From Chloroflexota bacterium (GTDB taxonomy: Bacteria; Chloroflexota; UBA6077; JACCZL01), in NCBI GenBank assembly GCA_020850535.1, contig JADZEM010000005.1:1-64000 (forward strand): a DNA stretch of 64,000 bases. Reading direction: 5' to 3'. Each line of letters opens with the position of its first letter. Position 1 is the stretch's first letter. The notes under the pieces were generated by a model that saw only the letters and a list, made by a program, of their open reading frames with translations, had not been told where the DNA came from and did not search any database. This document shows positions 43,288 through 48,800 of this stretch, piece by piece. The translations under genes and the position numbers were made by a program.

Positions 43288-44448
43288 TCAGCGGGCGCCG
43301 ACCGGATCGGCAAAGGACGGTGCGCGGGCGGCTCGGAGCTTCGCCAGCAGCTCGCGCGTCGTTTCGGCGTAGCGGGGATCGACTGGTTCGCTGTGGAAGC
43401 GCTCGCCAAGCGCGAGGATCAGGGTATTCAGCTCCTCGGGCGTCAGCGCGACGGTCACGGTCGGCTCGGTCTCTCCGGCCTCGGCAGGCTCGGTCAGCAT
43501 GTCGGGCATCGGCATCGCCGTCTCGGCCGGGCGAGCTTCGGTCGCGGTGAGCCCCGCGTCGCTCTGCTCGATGCGGGCCAGCTCGTCCGGACGGACCATC
43601 AGCACGGGGATCTCGCTCTGCTTGAGGGTTGCCGAGGCGACGCTGCCCATGACCGCGCGGGCGAGGCCGCCTCGGCCATGCGTCGCCATCACGATCAGCG
43701 AGGCCTGAAGCTCAGCGGCCAGCATCGCCACCCCGAAGAACGGCGAGCCGAACATGGCCGAGACCTCGACCTTGCGGGTGTCGGTGCGGATCGTCGCCGC
43801 GACCTCCTGGAGGTACTCGCGGCTGACGGCCAGGGCATTCTCTGTTGGCGCGGGATCGACGAACGTGTACCCCTCGGCGTAGGCGGCGTAGTGCGGGAAG
43901 GTCACGACCGACCCGAGCACCAGCGTCGCGTCGAGGCTGTCGGCGAGCCGGGTGGCAGGCCCGAGCGCCGACAGTGCGAGCGCCGATCCGTCCAGCGGCA
44001 CGAGGATTTTGACGGGGCCATCTTCCTTCAGCTCAGGGCTGCCATGTGGGGGGATAATCAGCACCGGCACCGGCGCATCCCGCAGCACAGCGTCAGCCAC
44101 GCTGCCGTAGATCCAGCGGCCCAGCCCGCTGCGCCCGTGCGTGGACATCACGATCAGGTCAACCTCGTCGTCCTCCGCGGCTTCGAGGATGGCGACCTCC
44201 GCCGGGGCATCCACGACCCGGGTGGTGATGGTCAGGCCACGGTCTGCCAGCGTTGCGGCGTAGGCTTCGAGGGCGTCGGCGGCCTCGTTCACGAGGATCT
44301 GCCCCTCGCGGTAGGTCGGGGCGGCCAGCGTGTTGACGGCTCGCAGCAAGAGTACGGAGCGTCCATCGCGCCTGGCGATCCCGAGTGCGAAAGGAACGGC
44401 GCGCTGGGCTAGCTCAGAGCCATCCAGCGGAACGAGCACAGTGGTCAT
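43288..44448 (-). CDS. tandem universal stress protein with C-terminal extension
   Basis: A 386-residue protein with two UspA domains. The first starts MTTVLVPLDGSELAQRAV and ends at STHGRSGLGRWIYGSVADAV; the second starts VKILVPLDGSALALSALG and ends at ATHGRGGLARAVMGSVASAT. Both keep the ATP-binding Gly-rich loop. Beyond residue ~305 an acidic Thr/Glu-rich linker leads to a helical end (LTPEELNTLILALGERF to RELLAKLRAARA) that is not part of the USP fold. AGGAGG precedes the ATG at 44448. These proteins bind ATP and help survival under energy or oxidative stress; the extra helix may mediate binding to another protein, which is speculation. Confidence 0.93.
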   Translation of the reverse strand: MTTVLVPLDGSELAQRAVPFALGIARRDGRSVLLLRAVNTLAAPTYREGQILVNEAADALEAYAATLADRGLTITTRVVDAPAEVAILEAAEDDEVDLIVMSTHGRSGLGRWIYGSVADAVLRDAPVPVLIIPPHGSPELKEDGPVKILVPLDGSALALSALGPATRLADSLDATLVLGSVVTFPHYAAYAEGYTFVDPAPTENALAVSREYLQEVAATIRTDTRKVEVSAMFGSPFFGVAMLAAELQASLIVMATHGRGGLARAVMGSVASATLKQSEIPVLMVRPDELARIEQSDAGLTATEARPAETAMPMPDMLTEPAEAGETEPTVTVALTPEELNTLILALGERFHSEPVDPRYAETTRELLAKLRAARAPSFADPVGAR

Positions 44449-44661
44449 TGTGAGCCTCCTCACTGGGGCGCTCATCCGTCCCACTGAAGCGTAACGCAGA
44501 CGGCGGGCCTACGCGTTGAGGCATCTGCCCCGGGATCAGCGGGATATTCGTCCGCCCTGTCGGGACACGAATGGGCGCCCTCGCGGGAAGAGCCTCACCC
44601 GCCGCTCCGCTGCGCGGCGCGAGGGGGAGCACACCAGGCGAGGGCCTTCTTCGACCACGTC

Positions 44662-46293
44662 CTACTCCTGCGGGATGTGCACCCGGACCGTCATCCCGGC
44701 CCGCAGGTCCGGCGGCGTCCAGTCCAGATCCACGATGACCGGGTAGTGCAGGTCGCCGTCCGCATCCCGCTCGGAGCGCAGCGCCACGCTGCGAACCCGC
44801 CCGCGCAGCTCCCGCCCCTCGATGGCGTCCACCGTCACGGTCACGCTCTGGCCAGTCCGGATCCGCGCCACCATGAACTCGTCCACGTCGTCCGTCTCGA
44901 TGCGCAGCCGGCTGATGTCCCCGACCGCCGCGATGGTCGCGCCGGCCGTGACGGTGTCGCCGGTGTGGACCGGCAGGTTCGTGACGCTGCCCTGCCACGG
45001 CGCCGTGATGACCGTGATGGCCCCGTCCGGGGTCCGCACCCGGGCCAGCTCCTGGTTCTCGACCACGGTCGAGCCGATGCTCACCGACAGGCCGGTCACC
45101 ACGCCGCCGACCAGCGTGCGGACCGTCGCCTCGCTCTCGGGGCGCAGCTCACCGCGTGCCACGTTCTTGGTCGTGGTCGCCTGCTCGGTCGGGGCCGGCG
45201 TCGAGCCTGCCGAGCCGCCGTACCGGGTGTAGGCGACTCCGCCCGCCGCCACCAGCCCGATCGCCAGCGCCGCCGTGACCAGCAGGCGCGGCCAGCGCCT
45301 GGACGAACGGCGACGAGCCGTGGCGACCGGAACCGCGGCCATCGGCGTGCCGGCCGTCGGCACGGTCGGCGCTGGCGCGGCGGACGCCGGCGTCATGGCG
45401 GTCGGCGCGTCGCCCGGCGGCAGCGGCGACAGGCCGTTGGCGTACGCCTGCGCGCCGCGCGCCTCGGCTGGGGCAACCTCATGGTGCTCGGCAGGCGTGC
45501 CGTCCGGCAGCAGGATCACGGCGCGGCGGCGCTCCAGGCGCGTCGGCTCGCTGCCCCCGCCAGCGGCAGCCATAGCGAGCGGCTGAGCGGCGTCGGCCAG
45601 CGTCGTGGCGTTGGTGATCTCGGCCACCTGCCCGTCGCGGATCTCGATCTGCCGCTCGGCGGTGGCGGCAACCTCTTTGTCGTGGGTGACCATCACGATC
45701 GCCCTCCCCTCGGCGTGGAACTGCTGGAACAGCGCCAGCACGCGAGCCTTATCTTCGGAGTGCAGCTCGCCGGTCGGCTCGTCGGCCAGGATGATGCGCG
45801 GGTTGTTCGCCAGCGCCCGCGCGATGGCGACCCGCTGCCGCTGCCCGCCGGACAGGCGCGACGGCCGGAACTCCATCCGCTCGCCCAGACCGACCGCCCG
45901 CAGCAGCTCGGCGGCGCGGGCGCGGCGCTCGTTCAGCGGGACGCCGGCCGCCTCCATCGGCAGCTCGACGTTCTCGGTGGCCGTCAGGTCGTTGAACAGG
46001 TGGAAGCGCTGGAAGACGAACCCGAGCGTCGTCAGGCGCAGGCGCGTCTGCTCGGCGTCGCTGAGTGCGCTCAGATCCTGCCCGTCGAGCAGCACTGCGC
46101 CGGAGGTCGGCCGGTCGAGCAGCCCGATGATCTGCAGCAGGGTGCTCTTGCCAGAGCCTGACGGCCCCTGAATGGCGACCATCTCGGCCGCGCCGATGGT
46201 CAGCGACACGTCGTCCAGCGCGACGACGGTCGTCTCGCCAGCCTCGAACGTCCGCCGGACGTGGCGAAGCTCCAGCAGCGGCTCATGCGTCAC
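44662..46293 (-). CDS. MacB/LolD-type ABC ATPase fused to MacA/HlyD-like adaptor
   Basis: A 543-residue fusion. Residues 1-225 are an ABC ATPase: GPSGSGKST (43-51), the FQRFHLF Q-loop, LSGGQRQRVAIA (from 147), Walker B with Glu172 in IILADEPTGE, and His204. The D-loop reads GELHS where GNLDS is usual. A Pro/Ala linker (about 245-325) leads to one helix (337-356, LLVTAALAIGLVAAGGVAY), and then a periplasmic-adaptor part (about 375-543) with two half lipoyl-like segments (TLVGGVVTGLSVSIGSTVVE and GSVTNLPVHTGDTVTAGA) and a beta barrel, but no coiled-coil hairpin. In known MacAB systems the adaptor is separate and the ATPase is fused to the permease. Start overlaps the upstream permease by 11 bases. 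Confidence 0.88.
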   Translation of the reverse strand: MTHEPLLELRHVRRTFEAGETTVVALDDVSLTIGAAEMVAIQGPSGSGKSTLLQIIGLLDRPTSGAVLLDGQDLSALSDAEQTRLRLTTLGFVFQRFHLFNDLTATENVELPMEAAGVPLNERRARAAELLRAVGLGERMEFRPSRLSGGQRQRVAIARALANNPRIILADEPTGELHSEDKARVLALFQQFHAEGRAIVMVTHDKEVAATAERQIEIRDGQVAEITNATTLADAAQPLAMAAAGGGSEPTRLERRRAVILLPDGTPAEHHEVAPAEARGAQAYANGLSPLPPGDAPTAMTPASAAPAPTVPTAGTPMAAVPVATARRRSSRRWPRLLVTAALAIGLVAAGGVAYTRYGGSAGSTPAPTEQATTTKNVARGELRPESEATVRTLVGGVVTGLSVSIGSTVVENQELARVRTPDGAITVITAPWQGSVTNLPVHTGDTVTAGATIAAVGDISRLRIETDDVDEFMVARIRTGQSVTVTVDAIEGRELRGRVRSVALRSERDADGDLHYPVIVDLDWTPPDLRAGMTVRVHIPQE

Positions 46294-47545
46294 GGAGCAC
46301 CTCCACGGGATCGACTCGAACGGCCTGCCGGGCCGGGCCGAGGCTTGCCAGCGCGCCCAGCGTCAGCGAGAGCGCCACGACGGTCACGATCAGGGTGCGG
46401 TCGGCGGCGTAGAACTCCTCCTGGCCGTAGGCCGGCGCAACGTAGCCGTTGATGATCGTGCCGAACAGGGTGGCGACCACGACCCCGACGACCGAGGCCG
46501 CCGCACAGATCGCCAGCGCCTCGCCGGCCACCGACAGCAGGATCGTGCGGCTCGGCACGCCGATGGCCCGCAGCGTCGCCAGCTCCAGCCGGCGCGCCTC
46601 GACGGACCCGCCAAGCATGTTGTTGACGAAGATCGCGGCGACGCTCAGGATCATGAGGGTCATCGTCCAATGGCTGACGACGTCGCTCTCCAGGGCCTTC
46701 TCGGCCAGACGGACCGTCTCGGGCACGTCGTAGACGGAGACGGCGTCGAGGTCGGCCAGCCGGGCGCGCGTCGCCTCCGGCCGTGACGAGTCCACCGCGA
46801 TCACGTTGACGACATCCCCGAGGTCAGCTCGCTGCCGCAGGCTCTGCCGGTCGAGGTAGGCGATGCTGTCGGCCTGGAAACCGAAGCCGCGCAGCTTGCC
46901 GATGCCGACCACCTGGAAGTCGCGCCCGCCCAGGCGGACGCTCTGCCCGAGCGTGATGCCTTTCTCGCGGCTCAGCCGGCTCCCGACCACCAGCTCATCC
47001 GACCGCCGGAGCCAGCGCCCGCTGTCGATGACCACCGTGCCGTCGATCTTGTCCGGCTCGCCGTCGATGCCCATCACGCCGACCAGCTCGGCCGGCTGGT
47101 CCGTGCGCTTCGGGCCGGGCCGCTCGCGCTCCAGCTCCCAGGAGACCGCGCCAACGGCCTGGATCACCCCGGGCATCCCGCGGATCTGGGCCAGCCGGCT
47201 GGTGGCGTGCTTGAGCGTGCCGGGCGAGTCGCTGGGCAGCAACGGAACGAGGGTGCCGCCCTGCTGAATGACGCGGAAGTCCGCCCCCGAGAGGCGATAC
47301 TCCCGGGTGTAGAGGTCGAGCGTGGCCGTGTTGACGCCGAGCATCGTCATCCCGATGCCCAGCGCGATACCGACGCCCAGCACCATACCGATCGTGCCGC
47401 GCCAGCGCCGGAGAACGGTCCGGACCGCGTATGGCAGGGCCAGCAGCGGAATCGGCTGGCGCGCCGTGTCCAGGCCTGACGGGCTCGGCTGGTCCGGACT
47501 GGCCCCATCCAGGTGCGCGGTCACGCCGCGGCGGTACGTCGTCAC
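46283..47545 (-). CDS. FtsX/MacB-type ABC permease, second of operon
   Basis: A 420-residue permease. GTG at 47545 follows GGAGG in the end of the upstream gene. After a short cytoplasmic start comes helix 1 (GTIGMVLGVGIALGIGMTML), a ~230-residue extracellular MacB-type domain (residues about 70-300), then three helices including AAIFVNNMLGGSVEARRLELATLRAIGVPSRT region pieces and a C-terminal RVDPVEVLRDA, the standard FtsX ending. It is a paralogue of the upstream permease. Together they can form a heterodimer that works with the ATPase-adaptor fusion, with which its stop overlaps. Confidence 0.92.
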   Translation of the reverse strand: MTTYRRGVTAHLDGASPDQPSPSGLDTARQPIPLLALPYAVRTVLRRWRGTIGMVLGVGIALGIGMTMLGVNTATLDLYTREYRLSGADFRVIQQGGTLVPLLPSDSPGTLKHATSRLAQIRGMPGVIQAVGAVSWELERERPGPKRTDQPAELVGVMGIDGEPDKIDGTVVIDSGRWLRRSDELVVGSRLSREKGITLGQSVRLGGRDFQVVGIGKLRGFGFQADSIAYLDRQSLRQRADLGDVVNVIAVDSSRPEATRARLADLDAVSVYDVPETVRLAEKALESDVVSHWTMTLMILSVAAIFVNNMLGGSVEARRLELATLRAIGVPSRTILLSVAGEALAICAAASVVGVVVATLFGTIINGYVAPAYGQEEFYAADRTLIVTVVALSLTLGALASLGPARQAVRVDPVEVLRDA

Positions 47546-47546
47546 C

Positions 47547-48800
47547 TCATGCCTCCCGCAGCACCTCGACGGGATCGACCAGCGTCGCCCGCCGGGCCGG
47601 CCCCAGGCCGGCCAGCAGCCCGATGCCCAGCGCCAGCCCGCCAACCCCCAGGAAGAGCGTCGGCCCGGCCACGTACATCGTCTCGATGCCGTACTGCGGC
47701 GCGAGGTAGCGGTCGAACAGCCAGCCCAGCGACAGGCTGAACCCGATGGCCACGACCGTCGCCAGGGCCGTGACAGCCAGCGCCTCGCCGGCGATCAGCA
47801 GCAAGATCGACGTGCGCGGCACGCCGATGGCCCGCATGGTGGCCAGCTCGGTGCGGCGGGCCGTGACGGACCGGCCCAGCATGTTGCTGACGAACAGACC
47901 GGCGATGGTCAGCGTCAGCCCGACGATGATGCCCTGCATCACACGGCTGGACTCCAGGAGCTTCTCGGCCTGCCGGACGAGGTCGTCAGGGCTGGAGACG
48001 GCGACCGACTCCATCCGCTCGACGCGGGCACGGGTGTCGGCCGGCTGGCTGCTGTCCACCACGATCACGTTCATGGCGTCGCCGAACTCGGCCCGCTGCC
48101 GCAATGCCCGGTACTCCATGTACGCCAGGCCGTCCGAGCCCCAGCCGGAGCTGCGCAGCCGCCCGACGCCGACCACCCGAAAATCGCCCTCGTTGAGGCG
48201 AATGGTGTCGCCAAGGCTCAGACCTTTCTCGCGGGCCAGCGTCAACCCGACGACGACCTCGTCAGCCCGCCGGATCCAGCGGCCGGACTGCAGGAGCAGG
48301 GTATCGGTCATCAGGCTGGGGTCGCCGTCCACGCCGACGACGGTCACCAGCTCGGTCGGCTCGCCGATGCGGCGGCGACGGTCGGCCCGCTCCCGTTCGA
48401 CGCTCCAGGTCATCGTCCCGAACGCCGACCGGACGCCCGGCATGCTCCTGATCTGCGAGAGCTTGCCGCGCGCGCTCTGGAGCTTGCCGGGCGAGTCGCC
48501 AGGGAGGATCGGCATCAGCGTGCCGCCCTCAGCGTGGACGTACAGGTCCGCGCCCGAGCGGGCGAAGTCGCCGGCGAGCAGGTTCACGGACGCGCTGCTG
48601 ACGGCCATGATCGTCATGCCGATGCCGAGCGCAACGCCGACGCCGAGGATCATGCCGACGAGCGTGCGCCAGCGGCGGACCACCGAGCGCAGCGGAAACG
48701 GCAGGCCGCGCAGCACGCCGCCGCTCGCCGCGGACGCCGGGAACGGCTCCGCGAGACGCACCGGGCGCGCACCGTGCAGGAATCCGCGCATTGCGGACAT
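47547..48800 (-). CDS. FtsX/MacB-type ABC permease, first of operon
   Basis: A 417-residue permease from ATG at 48800. It shows helix 1 (TLVGMILGVGVALGIGMTIM), an extracellular MacB-like domain (about 75-295) with ADEVVVGLTLAREKGLSLGD, and a three-helix C-terminal FtsX domain with LFVSNMLGRSVTARRTELAT, AIGVPRTSILLLIAGEAL and the ending VDPVEVLREA. It is the first gene of a three-gene unit; its stop lies one base before the GTG of the next permease. The substrate could be a lipoprotein, lipid, peptide or drug; the family gives no more detail. Confidence 0.92.
   Translation of the reverse strand: MSAMRGFLHGARPVRLAEPFPASAASGGVLRGLPFPLRSVVRRWRTLVGMILGVGVALGIGMTIMAVSSASVNLLAGDFARSGADLYVHAEGGTLMPILPGDSPGKLQSARGKLSQIRSMPGVRSAFGTMTWSVERERADRRRRIGEPTELVTVVGVDGDPSLMTDTLLLQSGRWIRRADEVVVGLTLAREKGLSLGDTIRLNEGDFRVVGVGRLRSSGWGSDGLAYMEYRALRQRAEFGDAMNVIVVDSSQPADTRARVERMESVAVSSPDDLVRQAEKLLESSRVMQGIIVGLTLTIAGLFVSNMLGRSVTARRTELATMRAIGVPRTSILLLIAGEALAVTALATVVAIGFSLSLGWLFDRYLAPQYGIETMYVAGPTLFLGVGGLALGIGLLAGLGPARRATLVDPVEVLREA

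Follow-up and report, generated by a model that had tools for sequence, protein, structure and literature searches.

We describe a locus from a Chloroflexota bacterium that probably encodes a MacAB-like exporter (MacB superfamily, type VII) in a cell with no outer membrane. Members of its clade have a histidine in the D-loop of the ATPase, and in this genome the permease is duplicated and the ATPase is fused to the adaptor; export and substrate are suggested by homology. More broadly, and with somewhat less than even confidence, we propose an outer-membrane-less clade of ABC exporters whose ATPase dimers have histidine at both D-loop aspartate positions, balanced by a new aspartate three positions further on (LH(S/T)xDK), which would rewire the contact between the two ATPases, with one lineage also joining motor and adaptor covalently 1:1. 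The clade, with its rewritten D-loop and hairpin-less adaptor, is the larger and better-supported novelty when compared with the fusion, and its D-loop change lends itself better to testing.

Locus organization and permeases

The window, i.e. the whole stretch of DNA analysed, comprises 64,000 nucleotides of contig JADZEM010000005.1. Three minus-strand genes lie head to tail between positions 48800 and 44662, with the following features:

47547..48800, minus strand: permease 1, FtsX/MacB type, 417 aa (PF12704, E 7e-17; PF02687, E 4.6e-17)
46283..47545, minus strand: permease 2, FtsX/MacB type, 420 aa, GTG start (PF12704, E 2.3e-15; PF02687, E 4.2e-14)
44662..46293, minus strand: ATPase-adaptor fusion, 543 aa, GTG start, single frame (Pfam, AF2)
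45610..46293, minus strand: ATPase domain, residues 1-228, with Walker A, Q-loop, signature, catalytic Glu and H-loop all present
45748..45783, minus strand: end of Walker B and D-loop, DEPTGELHSEDK, residues 171-182; in the alignment His178 replaces the D-loop Asp, and Asp181 is invariant in the family
45289..45609, minus strand: low-complexity Ala/Pro-rich linker of about 105 aa, residues 229-335, predicted to be disordered (pLDDT mostly below 50)
45516..45519, minus strand: out-of-frame GTGA at codon 259 with GGAG 12 nt upstream, resembling the ATGA/GTGA gene junctions of relatives
45226..45288, minus strand: single transmembrane helix from hydropathy, residues ~336-356, with RRRSSRRW just before it
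44665..45171, minus strand: adaptor, lipoyl halves with a short loop between them, then a beta-barrel at which the chain ends (HlyD_3/HlyD_D23, AF2, Foldseek)

Permease 2 starts 1 nt past the TGA of permease 1, and the GTG of the fusion gene overlaps the stop of permease 2 by 11 nt. Coordinates and Pfam thus agree with an earlier sequence-only reading, which had described two FtsX-type permease genes overlapping or abutting the fusion gene. Both permeases carry MacB_PCD and FtsX domains above the Pfam cut-offs and four transmembrane helices each by hydropathy fit, and so combine the FtsX fold, the extracytoplasmic MacB_PCD domain and the four helices of MacB-superfamily (type VII) permeases. 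Since the two are 50% identical and sisters in the tree (support 89/93), a tandem duplication of one permease in this lineage is their most likely origin. Most of the 109 family-conserved permease positions are kept, with 14 and 16 deviations, respectively, and the permeases of the window and of split-gene Chloroflexota operons form one clade.

A gene for a two-domain universal stress protein (43288-44484, minus strand, with an ATG near 44448 behind AGGAGG) lies 3′ of the fusion gene. The stretch between them (44540-44660) is GC-rich and inverted-repeat-like, possibly a terminator.

Domains of the ATPase-adaptor fusion

Pfam places ABC_tran at residues 26-174 of the fusion (E 3.6e-35), Biotin_lipoyl at 397-456, HlyD_D23 at 428-503 (2.3e-13) and HlyD_3 at 428-533 (2.7e-13). 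The ATPase has the complete motif set of the MacB/LolD type, with Walker A GPSGSGKST (43-51), Q95, the signature LSGGQ (147-151), D171/E172 of Walker B and H204 of the H-loop, and the closest solved chains are those of MacB (5lj9, E 1.3e-64). The MacB equivalog NF007826 was not reached (263.5 bits, cut-off 966), the ATPase being joined to the adaptor and not to the permease, and neither were those of LolCDE (LolD 230.7 against a cut-off of 307.75; LolCE 22.5 against 362.45). The only hydrophobic segment of the fusion, residues 337-355, marks the single helix, and the basic stretch preceding it predicts an N-in/C-out topology in which ATPase and linker are cytoplasmic and the adaptor lies outside. 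In an AF2 model of the full-length protein, ATPase and adaptor were both predicted with confidence, and ~130 low-confidence residues, the helix among them, lay in between. Because the combined alignment behind this model put ~38 adaptor residues into the ATPase part, the adaptor fold was read from a separate model of the adaptor.

This adaptor model (pLDDT 92.7) is all beta save for one helix of four residues and contains no coiled-coil hairpin. Foldseek returned BesA first (E 4.7e-11), followed by MacA (4.1e-10) and then ZneB, while a PDB profile search ranked a MacA chimera first (7.4e-23). A split lipoyl domain and a beta-barrel after an N-terminal membrane anchor identify a membrane fusion protein of the HlyD/MacA kind; since the chain ends at the barrel, it has no membrane-proximal domain. 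The features of a MacA-type tripartite adaptor are absent, as the model holds no alpha-hairpin or long helices and the genome no outer-membrane efflux protein (OEP). Pfam, AF2 and hydropathy hence bear out the claim that one gene joins a MacB/LolD-type ATPase, a Pro/Ala linker, one helix and a hairpin-less lipoyl adaptor.

Searches of the genome gave no match to the OEP/TolC or Omp85 families, each of which was found in 7 of 14 control genomes. This fits a cell without an outer membrane; a TolC-docking hairpin would be without a partner here. The proposal that the arrangement suits a cell lacking an outer membrane tunnel accordingly holds for the missing TolC and Omp85 matches and the hairpin-less adaptor, but not for the fusion, which is not general in such relatives.

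Split-gene relatives in Chloroflexota

Adaptor searches of 61 and then 400 genomes, together with a scan of 84,980 species genomes, revealed the same system in 13 other genomes, which were Chloroflexota in every case with a name shown. Their complete loci consist of one FtsX permease, the ATPase and a short hairpin-less adaptor, and the ATPases of the family form one clade (support 100/99). In each of the 12 relatives with a visible junction, ATPase and adaptor have a gene each, and six of the eight junctions inspected are ATGA/GTGA overlaps; in one genome (G007) the two genes lie on different contigs. Given these split junctions and single permeases, we consider fusion and permease duplication to be private to the genome studied here. 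The nearest matches of its adaptor sit in split-gene operons of the same clade, whereas other Chloroflexota adaptor operons have adaptors of mostly 370-530 aa and GxLD D-loops. The adaptor search gave no match in two genomes of the same family (G001, G002).

A census of ATPase-adaptor fusions, which the sequence-only reading had suggested, returned none beyond this genome: no open reading frame with both domains occurred among the 12 relatives or among 67 adaptor loci (84,980 species genomes scanned with non-exhaustive patterns), and none of the best 5,000 plasmid records had one place covering 80% of the query. On these results we rejected the fusion as a common architecture. The sequence-only reading had named, as evidence against it, a related genome set that always keeps the two genes apart; the 12 split junctions thus count against a reshuffled form in general use, but do not refute a fusion in this genome. 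A search of a literature library found no ATPase-adaptor fusion either. We regard it as a rare variant, possibly unique.

Some further open frames were inspected. In an Anaerolineae MAG, a single open frame (L105:3607-5946) has two strong adaptor-domain matches. The 462-codon open frame around the adaptor at L042:2031-3416 was rejected as a fusion, as its overlap with the ATPase gene is out of frame. The operons of two relatives (L188 and L190, from G244 and G153) have frame breaks within ATPase, adaptor or permease that probably reflect errors in the MAGs or decay of the genes.

The reading frame through the linker

A missed stop near 45300-45560 would have separated ATPase and adaptor. None was found in frame, and the fused frame runs through the linker with no clear frame break and a coherent GC3 of 0.83-1.0; the GTGA at 45519-45516, out of frame, is a caveat. 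Codon likelihood favours the fused frame over both alternatives at residues 228-258 and 259-335, being uninformative in the short low-complexity stretches 231-249 and 296-339. We consider the fusion probably genuine. It is known from one MAG only, and a single-base error just before codon 259 could mimic it.

If an error of assembly or base calling, or a frameshift that one strain acquired very recently, had joined the frames, the true genes would be an ATPase of ~258 codons and an adaptor of ~285 codons, coupled through that GTGA. The split junctions of the relatives and their 4-nt overlaps, the GGAG in front of the GTGA, and the frame breaks in the same operon at L188 and L190 all speak for this reading. 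On the other hand, the fused frame is clearly preferred at residues 246-274, which confines any error to the few codons before 259, and the ATPases of the relatives stop about 30 residues earlier. The adjacent long open reading frames (398, 417, 420, 519 and 913 aa) are all intact, arguing against a high error rate in this region, and a GTGA is, at a rough estimate, no unusual chance event over about 110 GC-rich codons. We regard this explanation as unlikely.

The gene might also yield two products if translation began at GTG259 or ATG241 as well, so that a free adaptor was made beside the fusion and mixed complexes held more adaptors than ATPases. GTG259 is in frame behind its GGAG, the free adaptors of the relatives begin at a GTG or ATG at the ATPase end, and MacA is hexameric (PMC5985334), a 1:1 fusion alone being insufficient for six adaptors per transporter. 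The 12-nt spacing between GGAG and GTG is long, however, and a hairpin-less adaptor may need no hexameric tube; we give this possibility very little credence.

An aspartate-to-histidine change in the D-loop

The ATPase of the fusion was noted early on to read GELHS in place of GNLDS, and this reading was confirmed within 45748-45783. The canonical D-loop Asp (GNLD/GALD), which is usual for type VII systems without strictly defining them, is absent from the fusion ATPase, which has His178. Comparison of D-loops, as had been proposed, extended the change to the whole family: all 14 ATPases read G(E/A)LH(S/T)xD, whereas 31 of 31 related ATPases have Asp. Among ten aligned members, His occupies the D-loop Asp site in 10/10, Asp follows three positions further on in 10/10 and Lys next to it in 9/10; at the same three sites the 31 related ATPases carry Asp in 31/31, then Ser/Thr for the most part with no Asp at all, and finally Gly/Ala. 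The D-loops of four later additions to the family read GALHS(E/D)DK. Its occurrence across the family rules out GELHS as a sequencing slip or an oddity of the window. Judged from the alignment, the change is unrelated to the fusion, since it is common to every relative, fused or not, and the paired replacement (His for Asp, with an Asp gained three positions on) suggests compensation.

The string DEPTGELH occurred in 8 of 301 genomes of the phylum, always in this operon, and a reversed control gave zero among the matches listed. Within the class, DEPTGxLD was found ~90 times in 29 genomes, compared with nine true cases of DEPTGxLH. DEPTGLFH in G002 was rejected as a chance match, the region having no ABC or adaptor match. 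With the loose pattern LHxxDK in 400 genomes, 20 loci that were read proved to be non-ABC, so that the pattern by itself carried no information, although four other matches were true family members by their adaptor matches. A plasmid search with the D-loop stretch gave nothing above 60% identity, and a search of a literature library found no natural D-loop His. What the D-loop must do would be revealed by a His version that is active with its Asp relocated.

Proposed mechanism

FtsX-type systems can be signalling devices and not exporters, as in FtsEX. A transenvelope signalling device of this kind, with the outer adaptor domain as a lever driven by the ATPase cycle, would be in line with the permease superfamily shared with FtsEX and with a covalent link between ATPase and adaptor; the D-loop substitution could slow hydrolysis, and a universal stress protein gene lies 3′ of the operon in this genome and flanks that of L043. 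However, this adaptor fold is familiar from efflux and secretion systems, and none of the few annotated neighbours is a gene for a peptidoglycan hydrolase, a histidine kinase or cell division. We consider signalling quite improbable and favour export.

In the exporter, each ATPase would have an adaptor of its own, attached through a flexible cytoplasmic leash and a single membrane helix, and two fusion chains would pair with two permeases, probably as a heterodimer. That one adaptor would go with each ATPase, as the sequence-only reading proposed, is plausible. Through mechanotransmission, ATP binding and hydrolysis would shift the extracytoplasmic domains of the permeases, and a substrate picked up at the membrane's outer face might be pushed past two short adaptors. 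The leash would make the contact of adaptor and ATPase permanent with two adaptors per transporter, and we therefore favour a mechanotransmission exporter whose short adaptors act as stimulators or guides over one with a six-membered tube. In MacAB-TolC the ratio of adaptor to motor is six to two. If the fusion is true, this ratio is fixed, and the system tests the need for a hexameric tube without an outer membrane.

The tether may also hold the adaptor helix, the ATPase-stimulating part in MacAB-like pumps, at the motor. ATPase activity of the pneumococcal MacAB-like pump is doubled by the full-length adaptor but not by one lacking the membrane helix (PMC5768738), and the stimulation depends on the adaptor helix and cytoplasmic region (reviewed in PMC5985334), so the tether could well have a function. 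Toxic peptides or amphiphiles are suggested as candidate substrates after YknWXYZ and Spr0693-0695; the few annotated neighbour genes gave no conserved substrate clue.

Comparison with known systems

With MacAB(-TolC) the window shares the MacB-type ATPase (best PDB match), the MacB_PCD and FtsX permease fold and a MacA-like lipoyl and beta-barrel adaptor. In MacB, however, ATPase and permease are fused and the adaptor is separate, whereas here ATPase and adaptor are fused and the permeases are separate; furthermore, the long hairpin of MacA docks to TolC, while the window adaptor is hairpin-less and no TolC homologue was found. LolCDE is similar in its LolD-type ATPase score and in two related permeases per operon (LolC/LolE), but is a diderm system with a separate ATPase and no adaptor of this kind. 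BesA of Borrelia burgdorferi, the closest solved fold to the adaptor, likewise combines lipoyl domain and barrel and is a known hairpin-less adaptor, but retains a membrane-proximal domain, is not joined to a motor and works in a tripartite pump whose duct is TolC-like (PMC3807786). The Gram-positive MacAB-like pumps Spr0693-0695 and YknWXYZ also have separate ATPase and permease chains, an adaptor and no outer membrane, but their adaptors are separate proteins, and Spr0693 forms a nanotube channel (PMC5768738). The split-gene relatives (L037-L045, L134, L187-L190) share the related permease, the D-loop signature and the short adaptor with the window, and differ from it in having one permease and three separate genes.
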